Assembly (NCBI GenBank): GCA_903970435.1
Contig: CAJCIS010000048.1
Span: 1-36,490, forward strand
DNA: 36,490 nucleotides
Direction: 5' to 3'
Source of the DNA: Acidobacteriota bacterium
Lineage (GTDB): Bacteria > Pseudomonadota > Alphaproteobacteria > Acetobacterales > Acetobacteraceae
The notes beneath the pieces were generated by a model. That model saw nothing but the letters and a program-made list of their open reading frames with translations. It ran no database searches and was not told the origin of the DNA. The position numbers were made by a program, and so were the translations under genes. Positions 361 to 36,490 of the stretch are shown here, piece by piece. How positions within the stretch are numbered: position 1 is the first letter of the stretch; each line of letters opens with the position of its first letter.

Positions 361-381
361 TGCGAGCGATATTTTAGCTCC

Positions 382-3327
382 TTATGCCATCATATGCTTG
401 ATCCGAACCGCCAACGTTTCCATTACGAACGGCTTTGTCAACACCTGCATCCCAGGCTCGAGATGTCCGGTGCCGACAAACGCCGTTTCCGCATAACCTG
501 TAATGAACAGGATCCGCAGGCCCGGCGTTGTCTGCCGCGCCCGGTCGGCAAGCTGGCGGCCGTTGAGGCCGCCGGGCAGGCCGACATCGGTCACCAGCAA
601 ATCGACCGGCGTGCCGCGTTCCAGAATCCTGAGTGCGGCGGCGCCATCTTCGGCTTCCATGGCGGTATGGCCCAAATCCTCGAGCACGTCGCGGACCAGC
701 ATGCGCACCGTTGCCTCGTCGTCCACCACCAGAACGGTCGCATTGCGCCCGCCGCGCGGCGCATTCTCCGCCGCTGCGTCCGTTTCGGGTGCGAGTGCCG
801 TGCCGGCATGACGCGGCAGATAGATGCAGACGCAGGTGCCCTCCCCCACCACCGAGCCTATGCGCACCGTGCCGCCGGACTGGTGGGCGAAGCCGTGCAC
901 CATGGACAGGCCGAGGCCGGTGCCGGAGCCGAGCGGTTTGGTGGTGAAGAACGGATCGAAGGCGCGGCGAACGATTTCCGCCGGCATGCCGGTGCCGGTG
1001 TCGGTAACACTGAGCGCGAGATAATGTCCCGGACCCAAATCGATCGCGGCCGCCGCGCGCGCGTCCAGGTCGCGGTTCGCCGCCGCGATCGTCAATTGGC
1101 CGCCGTCCGGCATGGCGTCGCGCGCATTGATGCACAAATTCAGCAGCGCATTCTCGAGCTGATGCGGGTCGACCAGCGTGGTCCACAAGCCGGACTCCAG
1201 CGCCACATCGATCTGCAATTGCGGCCCTACCGTGCGGCGGACGAATTCCTCCATGCCGAGCACCAGTTTGCCGATGTCGGTCGGCTTGGGGTCGAGCGTC
1301 TGGCGGCGCGAAAAGGCGAGCAATCGTTGCGTGAGCGCGGCGGCACGGCGGGCCGCTTCCTGGGACGCGTCGATGTAGCGCTGCATATCCGTGAAACGGC
1401 CCTGGTTGAGCCGCCGCTGCAACAATTCGAGGCCGCCGGTGACGCCCGTCAGCAGGTTGTTGAAATCGTGCGCCAGGCCGCCGGTGAGCTGGCCCACGGC
1501 CTCCATCTTCTGGGCCTGCAGCAGCCTTTCCTCGGCCACGATCTGATCGGTGACGTCGCGGCCGTAACCGTACAGACGGCCGCCTTCCGGCACCGTCGTC
1601 CAGACGATGCAACGGCTTTCGCCTGATTTGGTCAGCAAATTGAGCTTGTAGTCGATGACCGGCCGGCTGGCGAACAGAAGTTCCATGCCGGCCATGCCGC
1701 CGGATCGGTCGGACGCCGCCACGAATTCCATGACGCCGCGGCCGAGCGTTTCGCCCGGCGTCCATCCGAGCACCTGGGTCCAGGCCGGATTGACTTCCAG
1801 CAGGGTGCCATCGGACCCCGCCACCACCATCAGCACGGGCGCCAGCCGCCAGGTTCGGTCCAGTTGCCGCGTGCGTTGCGCGACCTGTTCCTCGAGCGCG
1901 GCATTGAGCTGGCGCAGCGCCTCTTCGGCCCGGGCGCGCTCCAGGGCGTCCCAGACGCGACTGGCGACATCCTCGATGAGGGCGACATCCTCCGGGCACC
2001 AGGCGTGGGGATGGCGATGGTTGACGAACAGGCTCGCCCGGAACCGGCCATCGCGCACCAGCGGCACCGACACGAATGCGCGGGTTTCGATCGCCACCCA
2101 GATGGCCTGGTCGTCGTCCGGGTTCGCGGTGACGTCGTTGACCACCACGGTTTGCCCGCGGCGGTGCAAATCGATGCGATGGACGCCGAACAGAGCGACA
2201 TCGAAGGTGCCCTGCAACGGCCGCACGCCGTCGACATGGCAGGTTTCCAGCAGAATCGTCTGGCCGTCCGGCAGCACCTGGCCGTAGCCGACGCGGCAGG
2301 CGGCGAAATGCAGGCCCAGCGCGCCGACCGCCAGTTCCACGATGGCGCGGGGCTCGCTCGCGTGGCGCATGCGATCCATCAGATCGAGCAGGAATGACTG
2401 GCGGATGGCGGCGCGTTTGCGCGCGGTGATGTCGATGGCGGTGCCGATGGCGCGGCGGCAGACGCCGTCGTGGAACAGGCCGCGGCCTTTCGCGGCGACC
2501 CATCGGATGACGCCGTCCTCGCGGCCCACCGTGCGATATTCCACATCGTAGGTGGCGCGGCTTGCCGGATCGATCGCGGAGGCGAACGCCGACGATGTTG
2601 CGTCGAAATCGTCCGGGTGCAGGCCGGCGTAGAAATCGGCCATGCTGCACGGCACGTTCGGGCTGATGCCGAACATGGCCTTGGTGCGGTCCGACCAGGT
2701 GAGCACGTCGGTGGTGAGGTCGAGGTCCCAGGTGCCGACCTCGGCCGCGTCGGCTGCGAGGCGGAGCGACTCCTCGCTGAGTTCCAGACGCATTTCGGCG
2801 GCGCGCCGCTCGGTAATGTCGAACGAAATGCCGGCCAGCCGCAGCGGCGATCCGTCGGCCGCGCGCGCGACCTGTGCACGCACCTGCAACCACCCGATGG
2901 TTCCGTCGCGCCGGCGCACGCGATATTCGAGGTCATATTCCGCCTCGCCGGCCATGGCGGCCTGCAGGGCCGCGTGCCGGCGCGCGCGGTCGTCGGGATG
3001 GACGGCCTGTTCGAGGTCGTCCCAGGTGAGCGGCCAGTCCGCGTCGAAGCCGAAATTTACCTTGAAGCGGCCGGAGACCCGGAGGACGCCGGATTTGAGG
3101 TCGAGTTCCCAAATTCCCATGCGGCCTGCCTCGGCGGCGAAAGCGAGGTGCGCCGCATCGGCATCGGCGTCGATTTGAAAGGATTGTGTTTCGATCGACC
3201 GGTAGGTGTAATTTGCCGCGGCGGCCGCCGGAATATCGTTCGCCGGATTATCGTGCCCCGGATTATCGTGCCCCGGATTATCTTGCCCCTGGAGGCTCGA
3301 TGGGCCGTCAAGTAGGTCGCCAGCCAC
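382..3327 (-). CDS. PAS/GAF hybrid sensor histidine kinase with C-terminal receiver domain
   Basis: 981 residues. Domains in order: two PAS/PAC modules (about 61-178 and 184-305, each ending in a DIT-type PAC motif), a GAF-like domain (about 312-462), a short coiled coil, a third PAS (about 491-597), HisKA with phospho-acceptor His620 in GGLAHDFNN, HATPase (about 716-838; Asn730 in LLNLCINARDAM, the DTGTGM loop, TGLGLSM), and a receiver domain with acidic pair Asp869/Asp870, phospho-acceptor Asp914 and Lys965. No transmembrane helix is visible, so it is probably cytoplasmic. A partner regulator is not adjacent. The extreme N-terminus contains a four-unit 5-residue repeat (NPGHD type) coded by 15-bp tandem repeats, so the true start could be a later Met; the conserved part begins near residue 55. 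Signal unknown. A paralogue with nearly the same kinase-receiver half lies at the right edge. Confidence 0.93.
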   Translation of the reverse strand: MAGDLLDGPSSLQGQDNPGHDNPGHDNPANDIPAAAAANYTYRSIETQSFQIDADADAAHLAFAAEAGRMGIWELDLKSGVLRVSGRFKVNFGFDADWPLTWDDLEQAVHPDDRARRHAALQAAMAGEAEYDLEYRVRRRDGTIGWLQVRAQVARAADGSPLRLAGISFDITERRAAEMRLELSEESLRLAADAAEVGTWDLDLTTDVLTWSDRTKAMFGISPNVPCSMADFYAGLHPDDFDATSSAFASAIDPASRATYDVEYRTVGREDGVIRWVAAKGRGLFHDGVCRRAIGTAIDITARKRAAIRQSFLLDLMDRMRHASEPRAIVELAVGALGLHFAACRVGYGQVLPDGQTILLETCHVDGVRPLQGTFDVALFGVHRIDLHRRGQTVVVNDVTANPDDDQAIWVAIETRAFVSVPLVRDGRFRASLFVNHRHPHAWCPEDVALIEDVASRVWDALERARAEEALRQLNAALEEQVAQRTRQLDRTWRLAPVLMVVAGSDGTLLEVNPAWTQVLGWTPGETLGRGVMEFVAASDRSGGMAGMELLFASRPVIDYKLNLLTKSGESRCIVWTTVPEGGRLYGYGRDVTDQIVAEERLLQAQKMEAVGQLTGGLAHDFNNLLTGVTGGLELLQRRLNQGRFTDMQRYIDASQEAARRAAALTQRLLAFSRRQTLDPKPTDIGKLVLGMEEFVRRTVGPQLQIDVALESGLWTTLVDPHQLENALLNLCINARDAMPDGGQLTIAAANRDLDARAAAAIDLGPGHYLALSVTDTGTGMPAEIVRRAFDPFFTTKPLGSGTGLGLSMVHGFAHQSGGTVRIGSVVGEGTCVCIYLPRHAGTALAPETDAAAENAPRGGRNATVLVVDDEATVRMLVRDVLEDLGHTAMEAEDGAAALRILERGTPVDLLVTDVGLPGGLNGRQLADRARQTTPGLRILFITGYAETAFVGTGHLEPGMQVLTKPFVMETLAVRIKHMMA
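3228..3287. repeat. 15-bp tandem repeat in the 5' end of the hybrid kinase gene
   Basis: Four consecutive 15-bp units begin at 3228, 3243, 3258 and 3273. The units at 3243 and 3258 are identical (CCGGATTATCGTGCC), the one at 3273 has one change, and the one at 3228 is degenerate. On the minus strand they encode the NPGHD/NPAND pentapeptides near the N-terminus. Because the unit is a multiple of three, copy-number change would keep the reading frame. Confidence 0.9.
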
Positions 3328-14567: not shown

Positions 14568-14716
14568 CAGAAAAGAAAGTAGTTCTTTTTTGAAAAAAAG
14601 AACCAAAAAACTTTTGCTCTTGATGCAATCCCGTATTTATCGGCCATGTCCGAACCGATGTGCCGGCGCACGAGCAAAATTGTTTTTTTCAACAAAGACC
14701 TGCTTCCTTGCACCGA
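14568..14716. repeat. Dispersed hairpin repeat, copy 3, in a convergent gap
   Basis: The core hairpin begins at 14582, after a purine-rich box next to the zinc-ribbon stop. The conserved tail (TCTTGATGCAATCCC, then TTTATCGG) runs to about 14643. The rest of the gap holds a weak second A/T hairpin near 14673-14690. Both flanking genes end here. Confidence 0.8.
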
Positions 14717-18696: not shown

Positions 18697-18742
18697 GCAA
18701 AAGTTTTTTGGTTCTTTTTTTCAAAAAAGAACTCCTTTTTCT
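18697..18742 (-). repeat. Dispersed hairpin repeat, copy 4
   Basis: It fills the 61-bp gap between the ligase and permease genes, in reverse orientation relative to them, beginning with GCAAAAG right after the stop and ending at 18732. If it terminates transcription only partly, it would set the ratio of ligase to permease. Confidence 0.85.
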
Positions 18743-22145: not shown

Positions 22146-24080
22146 TTACGCGCTCAGCAAATCATTCACCGCCCGATAAGCCTGATCAATGGCCACGCTG
22201 GTATAGGCCCCCGCCCCCGAATCCGAATTCGCAATCGCAATCCGCCCGAACCGCGCCCGCCCGATTTCGTTTGGCGCCTGTCCCGGCGCCCAGTCCGGAT
22301 CGAATAGCGAGTTGTATTCGTAGGCATACCCATGCGGCCACCGGTTTACCGTAATGGCGGTGATATCGTGCGCCGGATCAAAGCCCCCCGGGCCCAGCGC
22401 GCGGCCCAATTGGTCGCGGATGTTGCGCTCGAACGTTTCGAACGACGTGGCCAACAGTTCCGCGCGGCCGGCGCGGTTTTGCGCGCGCTCGTCGAGGCCG
22501 GGTTGGCATGGGGTGCGCACCATGAATAGCAGAACAGGGTCGTCCGGGCCGGCGACGCTGCGATAACCGCCGATATTGGTGACTGGATTGAGCCGCATCG
22601 AAACCCAGTAGCCGGCCGGCGAATACATGGCCGACACGCCGAGTTTCTTGAACGCGCGCCAATTTCGTAGCGCGACGCTGGTATAAACCAGGGGTGTTTT
22701 CACCAGATAATGCAGCGCCTCCTTCTGTGGCGCCGGCAAGGTCGGGCACAGATACGGTATCATCATGTTCCAGCACGCCAGGACGCACTGCCCGGCGCTG
22801 ACCTGATGGAGTTGGCCGAACCGCGTGTAGACGATGTCGGCGCCCTGGGACTGCTCCGCCGTCCCCGTATTGCGCACGCCCACCACGATGCTGGAAAGCC
22901 GGATGCGCACCGGATTGCCGGGGCGATCCAACTGCGTGTAATCGGCGGGCGCGGTCACGATATCCGCGGCGCTGTGGCCGGGAAGCACGCCGGGCACGAG
23001 GTCGCGCACCAGCAGGCGGGCGATCGTTGCATTCCCGTCGGGGAAGTGAAACTTGTAGGAGCCGCCATCGGCGTAGCCGCCGCCGGTGTAGCCCATGCGC
23101 GGCGCGCGGCCTGGTTTGAGGTGCAGATCGTCGAAGCCGGGGAAGCCGAATCCCCACGCGTCCAGCGCCGGCACGGCATCGATGCCGACGCCCCATTCGT
23201 CATGCGTGAATTGCTGGAATACCGTCAGCACGCCGGGGTCCACGCCCAGCACCTGCAACATGTATTGGCCGTAGCTGATGCGCGACAATTTGTCCTTCTT
23301 CTGCGCATCGGTCAGCCCGGGCATGGCTGCGCCCTTGCCACCGAAAACGCGGGCCACGTCCTGCTTCACCTTGTCGCTCAGCGGCGCCGCTTTCAGCAAT
23401 TCATCGACGGGCTTCTTGCCGAGGCCCACCACCAGACGATCGCTGCCGAATGCCTCGCGCTGGAAGAAAATGCCGGTCCCCATGCCGTGGGAGGGGTAGA
23501 AATCGTCATTGGTGCAGGTTGCTTGCAATGCCAGCGGATCGATGCCCAGCGTGCGGATCAAACCGTCCGCCACCTTGCTGTAGGGATAGGGCGAGTCGAT
23601 TTCCAAGGTGCCGCCATTCATCAGGCTGAGGCGCTGGCCGAACAGGTATTCGTTGCGCTTGGCATGGCCGCCGAAATCGTCGTGGTTCTCCAGGATCAGG
23701 ATGCGGGCGCCGGGCTTTTGCTGGCGGAAGAAATAGGCGGCGGAAAGTCCGCTGATGCCGCCGCCGACGACCACCAGGTCATACGCCTCGCGCGGCGCAG
23801 GTGTTTTGCCGGCCGCCGCCCAGAAATCGCCATCGCGCAAACTGTGCGCCGCTTCGAACGAACCCGGATGGCTGCCGCGCAAACCGTTCAGCCGCGGCGG
23901 ATAATATCCAGCTGTGTCCTGCGGCGCCACGTGCGCGGCCGAGCCCCAGGCGGGCGCGAAGCCGCCCAGGCCCGCCGCCATCGCCGCCGCGCCAAGCAAC
24001 GTGCCCCCCAGAAAATCGCGCCGCTCGATCGGGCGGTCCATGCCCAAATCGTGATCCCGAGGGGATTTCCTGTCCGCCAT
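22146..24080 (-). CDS. Spermidine dehydrogenase-like FAD/NAD(P)-binding flavoprotein with Tat signal
   Basis: 644 residues. The N-terminus has a twin-arginine motif (Arg20-Arg21, ERRDFLGG) and a hydrophobic stretch ending near AWGSA, so it is probably exported folded to the periplasm. Next is the PPRLNGLRGSHPGSFEAAHSLRDG block that I associate with the SpdH spermidine dehydrogenase family, then the Rossmann FAD motif VVVGGGISG (106-111) and an acidic strand end (ILILENHDDFGGHAKRN). The length (about 620-650) fits. SpdH-type enzymes cleave spermidine oxidatively. The glutamine synthetase-like ligase and permease nearby fit amine catabolism. A start at the Met just before DRPIERR (Met14) is also possible. 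Substrate specificity is inferred from family only. Confidence 0.85.
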   Translation of the reverse strand: MADRKSPRDHDLGMDRPIERRDFLGGTLLGAAAMAAGLGGFAPAWGSAAHVAPQDTAGYYPPRLNGLRGSHPGSFEAAHSLRDGDFWAAAGKTPAPREAYDLVVVGGGISGLSAAYFFRQQKPGARILILENHDDFGGHAKRNEYLFGQRLSLMNGGTLEIDSPYPYSKVADGLIRTLGIDPLALQATCTNDDFYPSHGMGTGIFFQREAFGSDRLVVGLGKKPVDELLKAAPLSDKVKQDVARVFGGKGAAMPGLTDAQKKDKLSRISYGQYMLQVLGVDPGVLTVFQQFTHDEWGVGIDAVPALDAWGFGFPGFDDLHLKPGRAPRMGYTGGGYADGGSYKFHFPDGNATIARLLVRDLVPGVLPGHSAADIVTAPADYTQLDRPGNPVRIRLSSIVVGVRNTGTAEQSQGADIVYTRFGQLHQVSAGQCVLACWNMMIPYLCPTLPAPQKEALHYLVKTPLVYTSVALRNWRAFKKLGVSAMYSPAGYWVSMRLNPVTNIGGYRSVAGPDDPVLLFMVRTPCQPGLDERAQNRAGRAELLATSFETFERNIRDQLGRALGPGGFDPAHDITAITVNRWPHGYAYEYNSLFDPDWAPGQAPNEIGRARFGRIAIANSDSGAGAYTSVAIDQAYRAVNDLLSA

Positions 24081-24236: not shown

Positions 24237-24995
24237 ATGCCTCTCGACGCCCGCGCGCCCGCCCTGCGCCCATGCCCCGGCGTGCGCATCGAGGGCCTGT
24301 CGCTGCACTTTGGTGCGCAGCCGTTGTTCGACGGTCTCAGCTTCGATCTGCAAGCCGGCCGGCTCACCGCGCTGCTTGGCGAAAGCGGCGTGGGCAAAAC
24401 CACCCTGTTGCGCGTGGTGGCCGGGCTGGAGGCGCCGGAACGCGGCCGCGTGGCGGCCAGCGACGCGCAGCCGCTCGCCGGGCGCGTCGCGTTCATGGGC
24501 CAGCAGGACCTGCTGCTGCCATGGCTTTCGGCGTTGGGGAACGTTACGTTGGGCGCCCGCCTGCGCGGCGAGCGGCCGGATCGCGATCGGGCGCTGTCGC
24601 TGTTGGGCCGCGTGGGACTGGCGGATCGCGCGGACGCGTCGCCGGAGGCGCTCTCCGGGGGCATGCGTCAGCGCGTCGCATTGGCGCGCACCTTGTACGA
24701 GGACCGGCCGATCGTCCTGATGGACGAACCATTTTCCGCGCTGGACAGTTTGACCCGCGCGCGCATTCAGGCGCTGGCGGCCGAGCTTCTGGCCGGCCGC
24801 ACGGTGTTGCTGATTACGCATGATCCTTGGGAGGCATGCCGGCTGGCCGATGTGCTGCTGGTGCTGCAAGGCAATCCGGCCACGCTGAGCGCGCCCCTTG
24901 TTGTCGGCGGTGCCACGCCACGCGCGGTGGATGACGCAAATGTGCTGACGACACAAGGGAAGTTGCTGAAGCAGCTGATCGGGGAAGAGAAATGA
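24237..24995 (+). CDS. thiZ: ABC transporter ATP-binding protein, thiamine-precursor type (ThiZ-like)
   Basis: 252 residues. Walker A GESGVGKT (48-55), signature LSGGMRQR (139-146), Walker B IVLMDEP (159-165) and switch His in LITHDP. This is the nitrate/sulfonate/taurine/HMP-type ATPase family. It overlaps the permease gene by four bases (ATGA). The HMP/thiamine assignment comes from the TPP riboswitch and the THI5-like binding protein in the same cluster, not from the ATPase itself. The 156-bp gap upstream is shared with the divergent flavoprotein gene; no TPP riboswitch is seen there. Confidence 0.85.
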   Translation: MPLDARAPALRPCPGVRIEGLSLHFGAQPLFDGLSFDLQAGRLTALLGESGVGKTTLLRVVAGLEAPERGRVAASDAQPLAGRVAFMGQQDLLLPWLSALGNVTLGARLRGERPDRDRALSLLGRVGLADRADASPEALSGGMRQRVALARTLYEDRPIVLMDEPFSALDSLTRARIQALAAELLAGRTVLLITHDPWEACRLADVLLVLQGNPATLSAPLVVGGATPRAVDDANVLTTQGKLLKQLIGEEK

Positions 24996-25741
24996 AAGCG
25001 GCTGGGGGCGTTCTGCGTCCCTGCCTGACCTGCCTGGGCCTGGTTGCCATCTGGTGGGCCGCGCAGGCAATATTACAGCTGCCGCCCTACCTGCTTCCCG
25101 GCCCGCCGGAAATGGGACGAGCCCTTTGGGACAACCGCGGCACATTGGCCGGCGGGACGCTCACGACATTTACCGAAACGTTGCTCGGCCTCGTGATCGG
25201 CACTGCGTTGGGCGCGATTTCGGCGCTGCTGATGGTCGCCTCCGGCCATTTGCAGCGGTGGCTGCTGCCGGTGCTGCTGCTGAGCCAGGCAGTGCCCGTT
25301 TTTGCCTTGGCGCCGCTGCTGGTGCTTTGGTTCGGCTTCGGCATTGCCAGCAAAGTTGTCATGGCGGTGCTGGTCATTTTCTTTCCCGTCATGTCCGCCA
25401 CGTTCGATGGTTTGCGCCGCGTGCCGGCGGGCTGGCTGGACCTGGCCCACACGATGAATGCGGCGCCGTGGCGAACGCTGGTTTTCGTGCGGCTGCCGGC
25501 GGCGTTGCCGTCGTTCGGGTCCGGCCTGCGCGTGGCCGCCGTGTTCGCGCCGATTGGCGCGGTGATCGGCGAGTGGGTCGGCGCGTCCTCCGGCCTGGGT
25601 TATATCATGTTGAACGCGAACGCGCGGGTGCGAACCGATTTGATGTTCGCCGCCCTGGTTGTTTTGAGTCTAATGACCATTACGTTATGGTGGGCGGTAG
25701 ATCGCAGTGTGCGCCGTCTGCTGTATTGGAGCGCGCCCTGA
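24992..25741 (+). CDS. thiX: ABC transporter permease, thiamine-precursor type (ThiX-like)
   Basis: 249 residues with about six hydrophobic helices. The cytoplasmic EAA-like loop (DLAHTMNAAPWRTLVFVRLPAALPSFGSGLRVA) that contacts the ATPase is clear, and the end has the ERNA-like GEWVGASSGLGYIMLNANA segment typical of SsuC/TauC/ThiX permeases. It is translationally coupled to the ATPase gene. The partner binding protein is most likely the THI5-like product encoded at 29747. Another substrate of this family (for example sulfonates) cannot be excluded from this gene alone. Confidence 0.85.
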   Translation: MKAAGGVLRPCLTCLGLVAIWWAAQAILQLPPYLLPGPPEMGRALWDNRGTLAGGTLTTFTETLLGLVIGTALGAISALLMVASGHLQRWLLPVLLLSQAVPVFALAPLLVLWFGFGIASKVVMAVLVIFFPVMSATFDGLRRVPAGWLDLAHTMNAAPWRTLVFVRLPAALPSFGSGLRVAAVFAPIGAVIGEWVGASSGLGYIMLNANARVRTDLMFAALVVLSLMTITLWWAVDRSVRRLLYWSAP

Positions 25742-25746
25742 TATGA

Positions 25747-25794
25747 TAAAAGTTTTTTGGTTCCTTTTTTCAAAAACGAACTACGTCCTTCCTT
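25747..25794 (-). repeat. Dispersed hairpin repeat, copy 7 (degenerate)
   Basis: Core at 25748-25781, between the permease stop and the kinase start. The hairpin stem has substitutions (GTTCC... and ...CGAAC) that introduce one mismatch, so this copy is weaker than the others. Confidence 0.75.
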
Positions 25795-25813: not shown

Positions 25814-26896
25814 ATGACACCAAATGACTGGCCGCCGCTCAACCTTGACGAACTGGCCCCGGTCATCGCCAAGTATCCGGATCTCTCGCCGCCGCGCGCC
25901 GTCATTTGGCAAAGCCCCCGGCCGTTCGCGGCCAGCGGCATTGTGGTATGCGGGGGCGCCGAAATATTCGTCAAGCGTCACCACCGCTCCGTTCGCACCG
26001 GGCTCGAGCTCACGGAAGAGCATGCTTTTATGAAACATCTGCACGCCGCCGGCGTGCCGGTGCCGCAGGTGATAAGCCGCCCCGACGGCGGCGGTGCAAG
26101 CGAATACGGTGACTATACCTATGAACTTCACCGCAAGTCGGCCGGCCGCGATTTGTATAGAAACGAAGTGAGCTGGACACCGATCGGCGGCCCGCACCAT
26201 GCCGCGGCGGCCGGCCGCGCGCTGGGCGCGCTGCATCGCGCCGCTTCCGGCTACGCGGCACCGCCGCGCCGCGCCGAATTGCTGGTTGCCGATTGCCGCC
26301 TCACGACCGCGCCCGATCTGCTGCAAGCCATTGCCGCGCGGGCCGCCGAACAACCCGCGCTGGCCGCGGCGCTCACCAACCGCCCGTGGCGGAACGATGT
26401 CGAACGCGCGTTGCTGCCCTGGCACGCAACGCTTCTGCCGCACCTGCCGGCGCTGACTCCATTATGGACGCACAACGACTTTCACGCCTCCAACCTGTTC
26501 TGGAATGCCGACGGCAGCGTCGCCACCATTCTCGATTTCGGCCTCGCCAACCGCACCAGCGCGGTGTTCGATCTGGCAACCGCCATCGAGCGCAACGCCA
26601 TCGCCTGGCTCGACCTTGCTGATGGCACCACGGACATCGGCCACGTCGAACTCGCGCGTGCGCTCATCGCGGGTTATTGCGACGCCTATGATCTAACACC
26701 GGAACAGATGTGTGTGCTACCGCATCTGCTGCCCCTGGTGCATGTTGAATTCGCCCTATCGGAGCTCGCCTATTTCCACGGCGTTACCCGATCCGCCAGC
26801 AACGCCGAGCTGGCCTACACGGCGTTCCTACTCGGCCACGCAAACTGGTTTTCCATGCCTGAAGGACAGGACTTTCTCGGTTCGATCACACGCTAA
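25814..26896 (+). CDS. APH/choline-kinase-fold phosphotransferase in the thiamine uptake cluster
   Basis: 360 residues from the ATG at 25814. Kinase-fold motifs are present: a lysine in EIFVKRH (Lys54, ATP binding), the catalytic loop HNDFHASN (220-227) and the metal-binding DFG (241-243). This is the small-molecule kinase group that includes aminoglycoside, choline and thiamine kinases and RdoA-like enzymes. Its place between thiX and the riboswitch-controlled TonB receptor suggests that it phosphorylates an imported compound, perhaps thiamine or a precursor such as hydroxymethylpyrimidine, trapping it in the cell. This is inference: the sequence does not show the substrate, and I do not recognise it as ThiK. 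The frame extends upstream over the hairpin repeat, which is not coding. Confidence 0.82.
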   Translation: MTPNDWPPLNLDELAPVIAKYPDLSPPRAVIWQSPRPFAASGIVVCGGAEIFVKRHHRSVRTGLELTEEHAFMKHLHAAGVPVPQVISRPDGGGASEYGDYTYELHRKSAGRDLYRNEVSWTPIGGPHHAAAAGRALGALHRAASGYAAPPRRAELLVADCRLTTAPDLLQAIAARAAEQPALAAALTNRPWRNDVERALLPWHATLLPHLPALTPLWTHNDFHASNLFWNADGSVATILDFGLANRTSAVFDLATAIERNAIAWLDLADGTTDIGHVELARALIAGYCDAYDLTPEQMCVLPHLLPLVHVEFALSELAYFHGVTRSASNAELAYTAFLLGHANWFSMPEGQDFLGSITR

Positions 26897-26992: not shown

Positions 26993-27145
26993 CTCCAGCC
27001 ATCCAAGGGGAGCCCTGAAAAGGGCTGAGACACCGTTGGCCCTGTCCCGAAAGGTGCAGCGCAGCACGGAAACCCTGCCGAAGCGATCCGTCATCACGGG
27101 CGCTCGGGGAACCTGATCCGGGTCGTACCGGCGGAGGGACTGGAG
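26993..27145 (+). ncRNA. TPP riboswitch (THI element)
   Basis: Conserved parts of the thiamine pyrophosphate aptamer are present in order: GGGGAGCCCTGAAAAGGGCT with the P3 hairpin (GCCCT/AGGGC), the pyrimidine-binding CTGAGA (27025-27030), and the pyrophosphate-side CCTGATC (27112-27118) followed by CGGGTCGTACCGGCGGAGGGA. Outer stem P1 closes with CTCCAG (26993-26998) and CTGGAG (27140-27145), with further pairing inside. Between CTGAGA and CCTGATC there are about 80 bases, much longer than in compact members, so an extra stem is likely there. TPP binding should lower expression of the TonB receptor gene that follows, and perhaps of the binding-protein gene behind it. Confidence 0.93.
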
Positions 27146-27200
27146 TGGGAGACGTCGTCCGTCCGCGATCCTGCTGTCCCGCCGTGCTTTATGGGTGGGA
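27130..27200 (+). promoter_or_regulatory. Predicted riboswitch expression platform (Shine-Dalgarno sequestering hairpin)
   Basis: TCCCGCC (27177-27183) can pair with GGTGGGA (27194-27200), which overlaps the Shine-Dalgarno-like GGGTGGGAGG of the receptor gene. The same GTCCCGCC can alternatively pair with GGCGGAGGGAC (27130-27140), the 3' part of the aptamer. These exclusive pairings suggest translational control: with TPP the aptamer holds 27130-27140 and the site is masked. No T tract is seen, so transcription termination is less likely. Pairings were found by eye. Confidence 0.5.
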
Positions 27201-27219
27201 GGCGTCGATTTTGCTGAAT

Positions 27220-29586
27220 ATGAAATGGAGACCAGCACGCGGCACGGTGGCTTGCCTCGTCGCCGCCTTCATGGCGCCGCCCGTAGCCACGCTCGCACAA
27301 ACGGTTCCGCCGCCGCCGGAAAAGCAAACCCCCGAAAAAGTGATCGTGCGCGCGCCATTACGATCCGCCACAGGCGTCACCGGAACCGCCCCCGGCGGCG
27401 GCCTCATTTCCGAGGAGACCGTTCCGAAATCGCAAAGCACTGTCTCGGTGGATTTCATCGCCAAGCAGGTGCCCATCGCCAATAGCTTCAGCCTGCTGCA
27501 ACTCGCGCCCGGCGCCAACAGCGCCACCGCCGACCCGTACGGCCTCAGCCCCAATGTCAACATCACGTTACGCGGCCTTAACGGCGACGAAGTGGCCTAC
27601 CTTCTCGAAGGCGCGCCGCTGAACGACATCGGCTATTATTCCGGTTATCCCAGCCAGTGGGTGGACAGCGAGAATATCAAAACGATCGCCCTCGCGCAGG
27701 GCACCTCGGATCTCGACACACCCACCATCAACGCCACCGGCGGCCTGATCAACATCCAGTTGCGTGATCCCAGCCCCACGCCAGGTGGCCTGCTTGCCGC
27801 CAATTACGGTTCCTACAATTTGGTGCGCGGCTTTGCGCGCATCGATACCGGCCTGATCGGCGGCACCGGTGTCAGCGGATTTGTATCGTTCAGCCAAACC
27901 CAGGCCGACAACGACCGCGGCCCGGGCACCAACCACCGCCAGCACATCGACTACAAATTCACCAAGGATTTCGCCGACGGCAGCCACATTGCCGTCGTCG
28001 GATCCTACCACGACGCCATTCTGAGCAGCTATCCGCTGGTTTCTCTCGCCAACTGGAACGAATATGGCAAGGGCGGCCCCAATGTTTACGATTCGAGCTT
28101 CCATCCCGGCGACACCTATTACTGGAAACTCTACCAGCAACCCTGGCGTGACGTGCAAATCAGCGCACCCGCCCACATCGTTCTGACCGACGCACTCAGC
28201 CTCGATACCACCCCCTATTTCGAGCACGGCTTCGGCAACACGCCCTATGGCGATATCCTTTACAACACCGGCCAGGCGCAAGGCACGCAGCCGATCCCGT
28301 TCCTCAATCTGCCCAATGCGCAAAATGGCCAGGCGCTCGTCATGGGCGACTATATCGGCAATCAGTATCGTGCCGGTATCGTTTCAAAAATCACGGCGGA
28401 CTTCGGACCCAACACGCTGGTCGCCGGCTGGTGGTACGACTATGCGGACGATTACGACCCGGAACCTTTCACCCAGGTAAGCCCCGCCGGCGAACCTGCC
28501 AGCGTGTGGGGATTTCCCTTCACCATCAAAACCCCCAGCGGCACCAATTTCTCCACCCAGGAAGCCCACACCATCGAACAGGCGAACGTCTTGTTTCTGG
28601 CCGACACGCTCAGCCTGCTCGACAACACCCTGCAAGTCGATGCGGGCCTGAAATACGCCATGGTCAACCGCAACGGCACCAACGGCCTGCCCGGCCCGCA
28701 ATACAAGGTGGGCCTGAACAGCAGCGAAATGCTGCCGCGCGCCGCCATCCGCTACAAGCTGACACAAACGCAACAGCTATTCGCCAGCGTCTCCACCAAC
28801 TTCCGCTCGCCGGTGGAATATGTCCTGTATAACAGCTACGACGGCTTCGGCAATCTGTACAGCAAGGGCACAAACCAGGCCGACGAATACGCCATCTCCG
28901 AAGAACTCGGCTACCGCTACCAGGGCAAGGCTCTCGACGCCGCCATCACCTTCTTCAACTACAATTTCACCAATCGCCAGGTCGCCACCACCATCGACGA
29001 AGGCGGCGCGCTGATCGGCTCCAACATCAACGCCGGCGGCCAAACCTCCCGCGGCGTGGACGCCGAGCTGGGCCTGCGCCCTGTCCAGCACTGGCGCCCC
29101 TACATCTCCGCCGAATATCTGCACGCCACCATCGACAACGATTTCGCCACCGCGGCGACCAACCAGGCCGGCCAGGCAACGACCGACTATCTCCCCACCC
29201 AGGGCAAAATCGCCGTCCGCAGCCCCGCTTTCCAGGGCGCCATCGCACTCGATTACGACAACGGCACGTATTTCGGGAATATCGCGGTGAAATACGTCAG
29301 CAGCCAATACGCCACCTTCATGGACGACGAAAAAATCCCAGGCCACACCCAGGCCGACGCCACGCTCGGCTTTCGCCTGCCCGACATCGGCGCCGTGCAC
29401 CACCCCGAAGCCCGGCTGAATTTCATCAACCTCACCGACGCCAAATTCCTCTCCGGCGTCGCCACCGTCACCCCCAACGCGCTTGACACGGTGGGCCGCA
29501 ATGGCGGCACCGTCGCCGGCAGTTCGCCCAGCTTCTATATAGGCCCCGGATTTGCCGCCGTGCTCACGCTGGTCGCCGGCTTTTGA
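27220..29586 (+). CDS. TonB-dependent receptor for thiamine or a thiamine precursor
   Basis: 788 residues from the ATG at 27220; a TTG at 27211 sits at better distance from GGGAGG (27196-27201) and could be the real start. The signal peptide is MKWRPARGTVACLVAAFMAPPVATLAQ, cleaved near ALAQ-type residues (quoted here in two parts by position 1-20 and 21-27). Then come a TonB box (EKVIVRAP), a plug with NITLRGLNGDEVAYLLEGAPLND, and a long beta-barrel ending in Phe (LVAGF). The TPP riboswitch directly upstream identifies the ligand as thiamine-related, by established logic of riboswitch control. It works with an inner-membrane ABC system, here very likely ThiXYZ in the same cluster. Different in sequence from the receptor at 14717-17248. 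Confidence 0.93.
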   Translation: MKWRPARGTVACLVAAFMAPPVATLAQTVPPPPEKQTPEKVIVRAPLRSATGVTGTAPGGGLISEETVPKSQSTVSVDFIAKQVPIANSFSLLQLAPGANSATADPYGLSPNVNITLRGLNGDEVAYLLEGAPLNDIGYYSGYPSQWVDSENIKTIALAQGTSDLDTPTINATGGLINIQLRDPSPTPGGLLAANYGSYNLVRGFARIDTGLIGGTGVSGFVSFSQTQADNDRGPGTNHRQHIDYKFTKDFADGSHIAVVGSYHDAILSSYPLVSLANWNEYGKGGPNVYDSSFHPGDTYYWKLYQQPWRDVQISAPAHIVLTDALSLDTTPYFEHGFGNTPYGDILYNTGQAQGTQPIPFLNLPNAQNGQALVMGDYIGNQYRAGIVSKITADFGPNTLVAGWWYDYADDYDPEPFTQVSPAGEPASVWGFPFTIKTPSGTNFSTQEAHTIEQANVLFLADTLSLLDNTLQVDAGLKYAMVNRNGTNGLPGPQYKVGLNSSEMLPRAAIRYKLTQTQQLFASVSTNFRSPVEYVLYNSYDGFGNLYSKGTNQADEYAISEELGYRYQGKALDAAITFFNYNFTNRQVATTIDEGGALIGSNINAGGQTSRGVDAELGLRPVQHWRPYISAEYLHATIDNDFATAATNQAGQATTDYLPTQGKIAVRSPAFQGAIALDYDNGTYFGNIAVKYVSSQYATFMDDEKIPGHTQADATLGFRLPDIGAVHHPEARLNFINLTDAKFLSGVATVTPNALDTVGRNGGTVAGSSPSFYIGPGFAAVLTLVAGF

Positions 29587-29665
29587 AAGGAAAAGGAAGA
29601 ATGTTCTTTTCTGAAGAAAAGAACCAAAAGACTTTTGCTCTTGGCGCAATCCCCGACTTATCGGT
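29587..29665 (+). repeat. Dispersed hairpin repeat, copy 8, left arm of a perfect inverted pair
   Basis: It follows the receptor stop with a purine-rich box, then the core at 29603-29636 and the conserved tail (CTCTTG..GCAATCCCC, then GACTTATCGG). Hairpin closing pair is C-G. The core is an exact reverse complement of the core at 29699-29732. Confidence 0.9.
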
Positions 29666-29698: not shown

Positions 29699-29746
29699 AA
29701 AAGTCTTTTGGTTCTTTTCTTCAGAAAAGAACGACTTTCTTTGCTC
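29699..29746 (-). repeat. Dispersed hairpin repeat, copy 9, right arm of the inverted pair
   Basis: Core 29699-29732, reverse orientation, ending 14 bp before the start codon of the binding-protein gene. The trailing CTTTCTTTGCTC is the pyrimidine side of the purine box seen in other copies. Perfect complement to copy 8 over 34 bp, with 62 bp between. Confidence 0.9.
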
Positions 29747-30682
29747 ATGCCACTAACCCGCCGCCGCCTGGGCCTGCTCGCCGCCGCCGCCGCCGCCGCC
29801 GCGCCGGATCGCCTCACAATCCTGCTCGACTGGTTCATCAATCCCAATCACGCCCCCATCTTGGTTGCGCAACAAACCGGCGCCTTCGCCCGCCAGAACC
29901 TCGCCGTCGAGCTGATCGCCCCCGCCGACACCAGCATGCCGCCCAAACTCGTCGCCGCCGGCCACGCCGATATCGGCCTGACCGACCAGCCGCACTTCCA
30001 CGAACAAATCGCCGGCGGCCTGCCTCTGCTGCGCATCGGCGCCCTCATCGACCGCCCGCTCGCCACCCTGGTCGCGCTGCGCCGCAACGGCATTACCTCC
30101 ATCGCCTCGCTCCGCGGCAAACGCATCGGCCACGGCCCCGGCGACGCCGAACGCGCCATGGTCGGCGCCATGCTGGCCCGCGGCGGCGTTGCCCTGGCCG
30201 ACGTTGAGATGATCGATGTCGGCGAACAACTCACCGTGGCCCTCCTGATCGGCCAGGTCGACGCCGTTACCGTCTACCGCAACTTCGAATTGCTCGAACT
30301 GCGCAGCACCGGCGCCGAGCCGATCGCTTTCGACTATGAAACCAACGGCGTCCCCTGGTTCGAGGAACTCATCTTCGTCACCGCCACGCGGCGCGCCGCC
30401 GACCCCCGCCTGCCCCGCTTCCTCACCGCCGTGCACGAAGGCGCCGCGCGCCTCCGCACCGACCCCGAAGCCGCCTGGCAACTTTGCGCCACCGCCCAAC
30501 GCGACCTGCAAACACCCCTGAACCACGCCGCCTGGCGCGCCACCGTGCCCTACTTCGCCGCCGATCCGTTCGCGCTTGACACCGCCCGCTACGCCGCTTT
30601 TGCCGCGTTTCTGGCGCGGAGCGGCATCATCCCGGGGGCGCCGGCGGTCGGCAGCTATACGCGGGTGCTGCGGGCGGGGTGA
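29747..30682 (+). CDS. thiY: THI5/NMT1-like periplasmic binding protein (ThiY-like)
   Basis: 311 residues from the ATG at 29747. The N-terminus MPLTRRRLGLLAAAAAAAAP is a signal sequence with a twin-arginine look. The mature part opens with the THI5/NMT1-family strand ILLDWFINPNHAPILVAQQTG, then LTDQPHFHEQIAGG, SIASLRGKRIGHGPG and a YRNFELLEL hinge, all expected for the ThiY/SsuA group of substrate-binding proteins. It likely binds hydroxymethylpyrimidine or a related precursor and delivers it to the permease and ATPase encoded at 24237-25741. It stands after the riboswitch-controlled receptor gene, so it may share that control if transcription passes the inverted hairpin pair. Confidence 0.87.
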   Translation: MPLTRRRLGLLAAAAAAAAPDRLTILLDWFINPNHAPILVAQQTGAFARQNLAVELIAPADTSMPPKLVAAGHADIGLTDQPHFHEQIAGGLPLLRIGALIDRPLATLVALRRNGITSIASLRGKRIGHGPGDAERAMVGAMLARGGVALADVEMIDVGEQLTVALLIGQVDAVTVYRNFELLELRSTGAEPIAFDYETNGVPWFEELIFVTATRRAADPRLPRFLTAVHEGAARLRTDPEAAWQLCATAQRDLQTPLNHAAWRATVPYFAADPFALDTARYAAFAAFLARSGIIPGAPAVGSYTRVLRAG

Positions 30683-30683
30683 G

Positions 30684-30737
30684 GTAAGGACAAAAAGTAG
30701 TTCTTTTTTGAAAAAAAGAACCAAAAAACTTTTGTCT
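30684..30737 (+). repeat. Dispersed hairpin repeat, copy 10
   Basis: Directly after the binding-protein stop, with core 30700-30734. It lies between that gene and the tRNA gene, and probably ends the thiamine transcript. Confidence 0.85.
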
Positions 30738-34649: not shown

Positions 34650-34686
34650 GCAAAAGTTTTTTGGTTCTTTTTTTCAAAAAAGAATT
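34650..34686 (-). repeat. Dispersed hairpin repeat, copy 11
   Basis: Core 34651-34685 in the divergent gap between the POTRA-like gene and the small exported-protein gene. The last arm reads AGAAT instead of AGAAC, breaking one pair. This is the only copy located in a divergent promoter region. Confidence 0.75.
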
Positions 34687-35346: not shown

Positions 35347-36490
35347 TTACCCCTGCGCCAGAATACTCCTGATCCGGCTCGCCAATTCCTCCAGCGCGAA
35401 CGGCTTGGTCATCACATGCATCCCCGGCGTCAGATGCCCGCCTCTCACTACGGCGTTTTCCGCGTAGCCCGTAATGAACAGCACGCGCAGCCCCGGCCGC
35501 AGCGCCATGCCGGCATCCGCCAGTTGCCGCCCGTTCATGCCGCCGGGCAACCCGACGTCGGTCACCAGCAGATCGATGCGCGCCGCGGATTCCAGAACAG
35601 CCAGCCCCGATCTGCCATCTTCCGCTTCGATGGCAATGTAGCCGAGTTCCTCCAGCACCTCCACGGCCAGCATTCTCACCGCGGGCTCATCATCCACCAC
35701 CAGCACCGTTTCGCCCCCTTCGGCCCGCGCCACATCCGCCGGCGCGGCGGATGTTTCGTTTTCCGCCGCCGCGTCGAGATTGCGCGGGAAATACAGGCAC
35801 ACCATCGTGCCATGACCCAGCTCGGAATAAATCCGCGCCTGCCCGCCCGACTGGCGCACAAAGCCATACACCATGCTCAGGCCCAGCCCGGTCCCCTCGC
35901 CCAGCGGCTTGGTGGTGAAGAACGGGTCGAACGCCCGCGAAACGACATCCGGGGTCATGCCGCCCCCCGTATCGCTGACGCACAGCGACACATATTGCCC
36001 CGCCGGCAAATCGCGCGCCCGCGCCGCGCGCTGATCGAGCCATCGGTTTGCCGTCTCGATCGTCAGCCGGCCGCCATCCGGCATGGCATCGCGCGCATTG
36101 ATGCACAGATTGAGCAGCGCGTTTTCAAGCTGGTTCGAATCAACCGTAATGCTCCACAAGCCGGCGGCCGCCACGAACTCCATGTCGATCGCCGGGCCCA
36201 CGGTGCGGCGAATCAGCTCGGCCATATCGGAAACAAGCCTGTTCGCATCACAGGGTTTGGGGTCGAGCGTCTGTCGCCGCGAAAACGCCAGCAGCCGGTG
36301 CGTCAGCGCCGAGGCCCGCCGGGCTGCGCCGTTCGCAGCATGCAGATACCGGTCCAGATCGCCGAGCCTGCCCTGCGCCAGGCGCACCTGCAACCGCTCC
36401 AGACTGCCCGAAATGGCCGTCAGCAAATTGTTGAAATCGTGCGCCAGGCCCCCGGTCAACTGGCCGACCGCCTCCATTTTCTGCGCCAGA
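35347..36490 (-). CDS. Hybrid sensor histidine kinase, C-terminal part, cut by window edge
   Basis: About 380 residues are visible and the frame stays open to the right edge (codons for L-A-Q-K precede the first visible Met), so the start and sensory domains lie outside. Visible parts: HisKA with the phospho-acceptor His in GGLAHDFNNLLT, HATPase with LLNLCINARDAMPDGG, DTGGGM and TGLGLSMV, and a receiver domain with LVVDDE, LLVTDVGLPGG and MTKPF. The kinase and receiver halves match those of the product at 382-3327 almost block by block, including RQTLDPKP and NGRQLAD, so the two are paralogues. Signal and partner unknown. Confidence 0.92.
   Translation of the reverse strand, partial: LAQKMEAVGQLTGGLAHDFNNLLTAISGSLERLQVRLAQGRLGDLDRYLHAANGAARRASALTHRLLAFSRRQTLDPKPCDANRLVSDMAELIRRTVGPAIDMEFVAAAGLWSITVDSNQLENALLNLCINARDAMPDGGRLTIETANRWLDQRAARARDLPAGQYVSLCVSDTGGGMTPDVVSRAFDPFFTTKPLGEGTGLGLSMVYGFVRQSGGQARIYSELGHGTMVCLYFPRNLDAAAENETSAAPADVARAEGGETVLVVDDEPAVRMLAVEVLEELGYIAIEAEDGRSGLAVLESAARIDLLVTDVGLPGGMNGRQLADAGMALRPGLRVLFITGYAENAVVRGGHLTPGMHVMTKPFALEELASRIRSILAQG

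Follow-up and report, generated by a model that had tools for sequence, protein, structure and literature searches.

Salvage of thiamine by way of thiamine monophosphate (TMP) needs a thiamine kinase, a step that often has no assigned gene outside ThiK-bearing bacteria. Known ThiXYZ transporters feed pyrimidine salvage through TenA, ThiD and ThiE, and the ThiY/NMT1 binding-protein transporter family serves formyl-aminopyrimidine uptake in Bacillus. A thiamine uptake operon, OMthi-PnuT-Tnr3, has been described in Bacteroidetes; PnuT carries thiamine in Bacteroides, where a strain unable to make the vitamin grew less well on scarce thiamine once the transporters were deleted (PMC5613172). Here, we describe an APH-fold protein encoded beside uptake genes in an Acetobacteraceae genome that is probably a thiamine kinase (ATP + thiamine to TMP + ADP) and that, as its sequence suggests, would belong to an APH subfamily distinct from ThiK.

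The window, that is, the whole stretch of 36,490 nucleotides that was analysed, is contig C48 of genome G000, a 4.29 Mb assembly of 293 contigs that is 94% complete. The kinase gene (25814–26896, +) is preceded by genes for a ThiZ/SsuB-like ABC transporter ATPase (24237–24995, +; Pfam ABC_tran, 99.8 bits) and a ThiX/SsuC-like permease (24992–25741, +; Pfam BPD_transp_1, 100.6 bits), which overlap each other by 4 bases; the order ATPase-permease-kinase is repeated in genomes G049, G128 and G001. On the 3′ side of the kinase, a TPP riboswitch aptamer with an extended P3 arm (26996–27157, +; RF00059) occupies the leader of a gene for a TonB-dependent outer-membrane receptor (27211–29586, +; Pfam TonB barrel, 102.8 bits, plus plug). 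This receptor, with an uncertain start codon (TTG 27211 or ATG 27220), is probably a thiamine receptor. It is followed by an NMT1/THI5-like, ThiY-like periplasmic binding protein (29708–30682, +; PF09084, 178.7 bits), the presumed partner of the window ABC genes. The listed start of the NMT1/THI5-like gene lies inside a dispersed repeat, and the true start is probably further downstream.

The repeat is a 32-base element, AAAGTTTTTTGGTTCTTTTTTTCAAAAAAGAA, with eight window copies at up to 3 mismatches where none is expected by chance (323–354, 14583–14614, 18700–18731, 25749–25780, 29604–29635, 29700–29731, 30701–30732 and 34653–34684). The copies are mostly intergenic; one separates the permease and kinase genes, and two, oppositely oriented, lie in the gap between the TonB and NMT1 genes. 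The element gives many open reading frames false upstream starts (MVLFF..., MVPFF...) and produces a spurious MIR2118 match. Elsewhere in the window, a twin-arginine-signal FAD/NAD(P)-binding oxidoreductase gene (22146–24041, −) is divergent from the ABC ATPase gene and adjoins a cytochrome P450, and two hybrid sensor-kinase/receiver genes, much alike in their C-terminal parts, lie near the window ends (374–3327, − and 35347–36489, −).

The kinase gene is an intact open frame of 360 amino acids running from the ATG at 25814 to the stop codon at 26896. Its product scores 93.2 bits against Pfam APH (PF01636; gathering score 23.2, E = 2.7e-26), placing it within the superfamily, and possesses the ATP-binding Lys, the helix Glu, the HxDxxxxN catalytic loop and the metal-binding Asp. 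This APH catalytic set (K54, E69, H220-x-D222-x4-N227 and D241-F242), together with many aromatic residues, is invariant in 22 kinase homologues, and the invariance of the catalytic residues marks the gene as real and conserved. The genomes compared here are taken to be Acetobacteraceae from gene content, such as PqqC, and overall resemblance. In a set of 150 from the family, clear orthologues are well separated (33–56% identity, E ≤ 4e-31) from other APH proteins (E ≥ 8e-10); the window kinase thus appears to constitute an APH subfamily of its own. No relatives were found in the viral contigs searched.

An AlphaFold2 model of the kinase (pLDDT 92.1) has as its nearest folds homoserine kinase 2 (Z 26.3), the N-acetylhexosamine kinase NahK (26.0) and amicoumacin kinase (24.3). 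This shared fold, and the public annotation of homologues, where present, as ‘phosphotransferase’ or ‘aminoglycoside phosphotransferase family protein’, would suit an unrelated APH function, such as antibiotic resistance or a homoserine, choline or sugar kinase, encoded merely beside transport genes. We regard this as distinctly improbable, given a linkage to TonB and PnuC genes that is kept over alpha-, beta- and gammaproteobacteria while gene orders differ, and given the separate presence of a true homoserine kinase (401 bits) in the kinase-bearing genomes. Homoserine kinase is the best NCBIfam match of the window kinase, though far below cut-off, and homoserine kinase 2 was rejected as its identity (TIGR00938, 50.4 bits versus 271; NF003558, 34.2 versus 255.9). 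ThiK was likewise rejected as its family: TIGR02721 and NF007620 were both unmatched within E 0.001 and the hhalign probability was 1%, with E. coli ThiK, as a control, scoring 338 and 554 bits on the two models. The preliminary description, made from the letters of the window, had placed an APH-fold kinase between a ThiX-like permease and a riboswitch, in line with transport genes, and had seen no obvious match to ThiK. The first claim stands on the PF01636 score of 93 bits, the same-strand ATPase and permease genes and the RF00059 match on the 3′ side; the second holds by profile.

Members of the kinase family occur in Acetobacteraceae, Xanthomonadales and sphingomonads as well as in Burkholderia, Pseudomonas and Acinetobacter. 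Scanning genome contigs with only two sequence patterns returned 433 related loci, and neighbourhoods were taken from the 80 top-scoring. In 76 of these best 80 of 433 loci, a TonB receptor gene and a PnuC gene lie near the kinase gene on the same strand; the contigs of the other four end close by. These locus counts are not independent, because Xanthomonadales dominate. A phylum-wide sample contained the kinase in 14 of 398 genomes, two of them from the window's own family, and all 12 outside that family carried TonB and PnuC genes beside it. Within Acetobacteraceae (23 loci), a window-type TonB gene is directly 5′ of the kinase gene in 18, often abutting or overlapping it, and a PnuC-family gene is directly 3′ in 20. 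A connection between the kinase and thiamine uptake had been proposed from the window, with a neighbourhood survey of homologues as the check; that survey, with TonB and PnuC in 76/80 loci and TPP riboswitches alongside, bears it out.

The order of genes varies: kinase-riboswitch-TonB-PnuC in Xanthomonadales, riboswitch-TonB-kinase-PnuC in sphingomonads and part of Acetobacteraceae, TonB-PnuC-kinase in Burkholderia, NMT1-kinase-rhodanese-TonB-PnuC in Pseudomonas, and kinase-TonB-PnuC on Acinetobacter plasmids. That the module has been put together repeatedly, with its genes arranged differently, points to function and not to common ancestry of one neighbourhood. In G049, G128 and G001, as in the window genome G000, ABC genes stand beside the kinase gene instead of a PnuC gene, and a genome-wide search detected no PnuC in any of the four; PnuC is absent from exactly those genomes that have ABC genes beside the kinase. 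In the window lineage, a ThiXYZ-like ABC transporter would therefore seem to take the place of PnuC, so that the importer changes while the kinase stays.

Public annotation calls the adjacent transporter ‘nicotinamide riboside transporter PnuC’, and the neighbour scores above cut-off against PF04973 (156.6 bits at L034 and 179.3 bits at L069) and against TIGR01528 (59 and 76 bits, cut-off 42.45), a model that may not separate PnuC from PnuT. If the annotation is taken at face value, as the above-cut-off NCBIfam call would allow and as a nicotinamidase gene near the Sphingomonas locus might hint, the kinase would be a nicotinamide riboside kinase acting on nicotinamide riboside imported by its neighbour. 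We consider this very improbable: the adjacent regulatory RNA is a TPP aptamer in three orders, the window lineage carries no PnuC, and TIGR01528 may not tell PnuC from PnuT. From the TPP riboswitch and kinase context, the PnuC-type neighbour is probably the thiamine transporter PnuT.

The window riboswitch matches RF00059 at all model positions 1–105, with a long P3 insert (43.0 bits, E = 4.7e-6). Its score is below the Rfam gathering score of 54.3 bits; the aptamer is missed at that threshold and emerged from an E-value scan of the locus. We assign it on the full-length aptamer match, the significant E-value and recurrence at the same place in relatives, as the sisters G049 (51.1 bits) and G128 (50.5 bits) each have a TPP riboswitch in the matching position with respect to the kinase gene. 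Single-strand folding of the leader was not informative (z −0.52). The aptamer heads the TonB-receptor/NMT1-protein unit, and since it lies 3′ of the kinase gene and ahead of the TonB gene, the kinase is not controlled by it in the window genome; Rfam scans of the window and locus returned no riboswitch upstream of the ATPase gene.

Across the best 80 of 433 loci, the pattern scan placed a TPP riboswitch directly 3′ of the kinase gene in 67; the 13 others are nine Pseudomonas loci, two from Burkholderiaceae and two on contigs ending nearby. Rfam confirmed the riboswitch in every pattern-scan-positive locus tested, and one stands beside the kinase gene in most Xanthomonadales and in two sphingomonads (Sphingomonas and Novosphingobium). 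Among Acetobacteraceae, 9 of 24 genomes carry it beside the kinase locus (G000, G049, G128, G136, G118, G066, G101, G070 and G032). In six Acetobacteraceae genomes, as in Sphingomonas and Novosphingobium, it heads the TonB-kinase-PnuC operon. In most of the remaining Acetobacteraceae, the riboswitch detected is near thiC; most larger genomes with full thiamine synthesis have none beside the kinase operon. No TPP riboswitch was found at the Rfam gathering threshold in the Pseudomonas, Burkholderia and Acinetobacter kinase loci. Both observations weigh against the thiamine kinase reading.

Several loci depart from these arrangements. In Pseudomonas marginalis (L069, 3584–12363), genes for an NMT1/THI5-like protein, the kinase, a rhodanese, a TonB receptor and PnuC are joined by a luciferase-like monooxygenase and an M20 peptidase. 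Extended clusters of this kind recur in L164–L166 and L169. Those loci that were tested gave no TPP riboswitch by Rfam, and the Pseudomonas cluster may serve another thiamine-related compound. The kinase-TonB-PnuC arrangement also occurs on mobilizable Acinetobacter plasmids (L159, 5947–9970; L160, 5947–9974), with a GntR regulator gene upstream at a varying distance, and reads as a mobile vitamin-uptake module. In G126 (L053, 5936–9240), which keeps ThiC, ThiD, ThiE and ThiG, the TonB receptor and kinase genes are each split over several frames, which would suit decay of the uptake operon in a genome with intact synthesis, or a misassembly. In the thiamine auxotroph G136 (L041, 9282–11631), the TonB gene beside the kinase gene is in two frames (556 and 118 amino acids), owing to a frameshift, sequencing error or divergence. 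A tree of 41 kinase sequences groups those of the window, G049 and G001 with Xanthomonadales (support 91/94), the placement of G001 inside the Xanthomonadales cluster being weak, and groups most Acetobacteraceae kinases together and with Burkholderia (support 100/97); this topology would fit both horizontal transfer and loss of old paralogues.

To narrow down the substrate, we turn to the thiamine genes of the kinase-bearing genomes, where absences come from whole-genome profile searches and depend on profile sensitivity. In these searches, ThiC was not found in G000, G049, G128, G136, G001, G032 and G070; ThiD and full-length ThiG were not found in G000, G049, G128, G136, G070 and G032; and ThiE above or near cut-off was not found in G000, G136, G070 and G032. 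The ThiE profile matched G000 weakly (42.5 bits against a cut-off of 145.1), and ThiG matches were short (<35 bits over ~100 of 247 positions); these were rejected as ThiE and ThiG. PF03070 (TENA) hits in G000, G136, G070 and G032 are PqqC (331–376 bits, cut-off 240), and TenA or pyrimidine salvage was rejected as their meaning. These same four genomes thus have the kinase and ThiL without ThiC, ThiD, ThiE, ThiG, true TenA or thiamine pyrophosphokinase. Three of them (G136, G070 and G032) are 99–100% complete; for G000, 94% complete and in 293 contigs, some absences could be gaps.

Two lines of reasoning follow from the four reduced genomes: i) because they can neither make nor join the thiamine halves, imported thiamine is their only plausible source of TPP, and ii) because they keep ThiL, which needs TMP, a thiamine-to-TMP kinase is required, for which the window-type kinase is the obvious candidate. 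The APH-family complement of G032 consists of the window-type kinase and homoserine kinase alone; G070 adds a UbiB-type protein to these two, and G136 has a homoserine-kinase-like protein as its third. By this pathway argument, thiamine itself, not a precursor, is likely the substrate of the kinase. The label ‘thiamine-precursor’ cluster given in the preliminary description is not supported, as ThiL is kept while ThiC, ThiD, ThiE, ThiG and true TenA are missing in the window genome and in three near-complete relatives. Of its proposal that the kinase traps imported thiamine or a derivative, the part naming a thiamine-related compound remains the best explanation, and the part naming a pyrimidine or thiazole derivative is not supported, since such a product would have no route to TPP in these genomes.

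A point against the thiamine reading is that the ABC-type sister G049 keeps ThiE and is missing ThiC, ThiD and ThiG. Phosphorylation of a precursor of thiamine or of one of its breakdown products (HMP, aminomethyl-pyrimidine or hydroxyethylthiazole), imported by a ThiXYZ/ThiY-type transporter, would accord with the ABC genes and the NMT1 binding protein of ThiY type at the window locus and with the gene content of G001, which is missing ThiC and keeps ThiD, ThiE and ThiG, as expected of a pyrimidine salvager. This possibility is nevertheless unlikely, as phosphorylating a precursor would lead nowhere in the four kinase-bearing genomes without ThiD, ThiE, ThiG and true TenA, and as PnuC, not the ABC system, is paired with the kinase in most relatives, Bacteroides PnuT being a carrier of thiamine (PMC5613172).

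Profile searches detected no thiamine pyrophosphokinase in any of 28 genomes, with 7 of 14 control genomes positive. The absence of another such enzyme could be read as a sign that the kinase converts thiamine straight to TPP, or phosphorylates TMP; the chance of this is slight in the extreme, given that a ThiL search was positive in 32 of 32 genomes and that APH-fold enzymes transfer the gamma-phosphate.

Taken together, a model for a thiamine-scavenging module emerges, with the kinase probably an unannotated, non-ThiK thiamine kinase as judged from genomics. The TonB receptor would take thiamine across the outer membrane. Passage of the inner membrane would fall, in the window lineage, to the ThiXYZ-like ABC transporter, to which the window binding protein may deliver thiamine, and in most other lineages to a PnuC/PnuT-type transporter. 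The kinase would then phosphorylate cytoplasmic thiamine to TMP, trapping it, and ThiL would convert TMP to TPP; rising TPP would shut off the TonB gene, and the kinase gene where it is in the same operon. More broadly, it is reasonably likely that this second, non-orthologous thiamine kinase subfamily of alpha-, beta- and gammaproteobacteria is the constant part of the riboswitch-linked module, around which the receptor (at least two TonB types) and importer (PnuT or ThiXYZ-like ABC) are exchanged.

If so, the family would fill the thiamine-to-TMP gap in many Pseudomonadota without ThiK or thiamine pyrophosphokinase, including auxotrophic Acetobacteraceae, for which auxotrophy predictions would become more reliable. 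Annotations would change from ‘phosphotransferase’ to thiamine kinase and from ‘nicotinamide riboside transporter PnuC’ to probable thiamine transporter PnuT. Literature on an APH kinase with PnuT, TonB or a riboswitch, searched outside older subscription sources and RegPrecise, yielded papers on the Bacteroides system and on thiamine in general, and nothing else. Thiamine transporters are listed in a 2013 survey of RNA regulons, whose main text mentions neither a kinase nor PnuT; the kinase may have been predicted in silico elsewhere in the literature.

Relative to described systems, the closest solved fold is Agrobacterium homoserine kinase 2 (ThrB_alt, 2ppq; Z 26.3, rmsd 4.3 over 307 residues), from which the window kinase differs in sharing 17% identity and in a profile score of 50 bits against a cut-off of 271. 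The window resembles ThiXYZ-type ABC transporters with ThiY in encoding an ATPase and a permease together with an NMT1 binding protein, whereas the pyrimidine salvage path (TenA, ThiD and ThiE) was not found in its genome. The Bacteroidetes OMthi-PnuT-Tnr3 operon likewise combines a TPP-riboswitch-associated TonB receptor, a Pnu-type inner-membrane transporter and a kinase using imported thiamine (PMC5613172), but Tnr3 forms thiamine pyrophosphate, while the window-type APH-fold kinase would need ThiL, and the window lineage has an ABC transporter in place of PnuT. E. coli ThiK (YcfN) belongs to the same APH/choline-kinase superfamily and performs the thiamine-to-TMP reaction predicted here, followed by ThiL; it is a shorter protein (274 versus 360 amino acids), and E. 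coli thiK has no thiamine transport neighbours, whereas the window-type kinase is encoded beside uptake genes.
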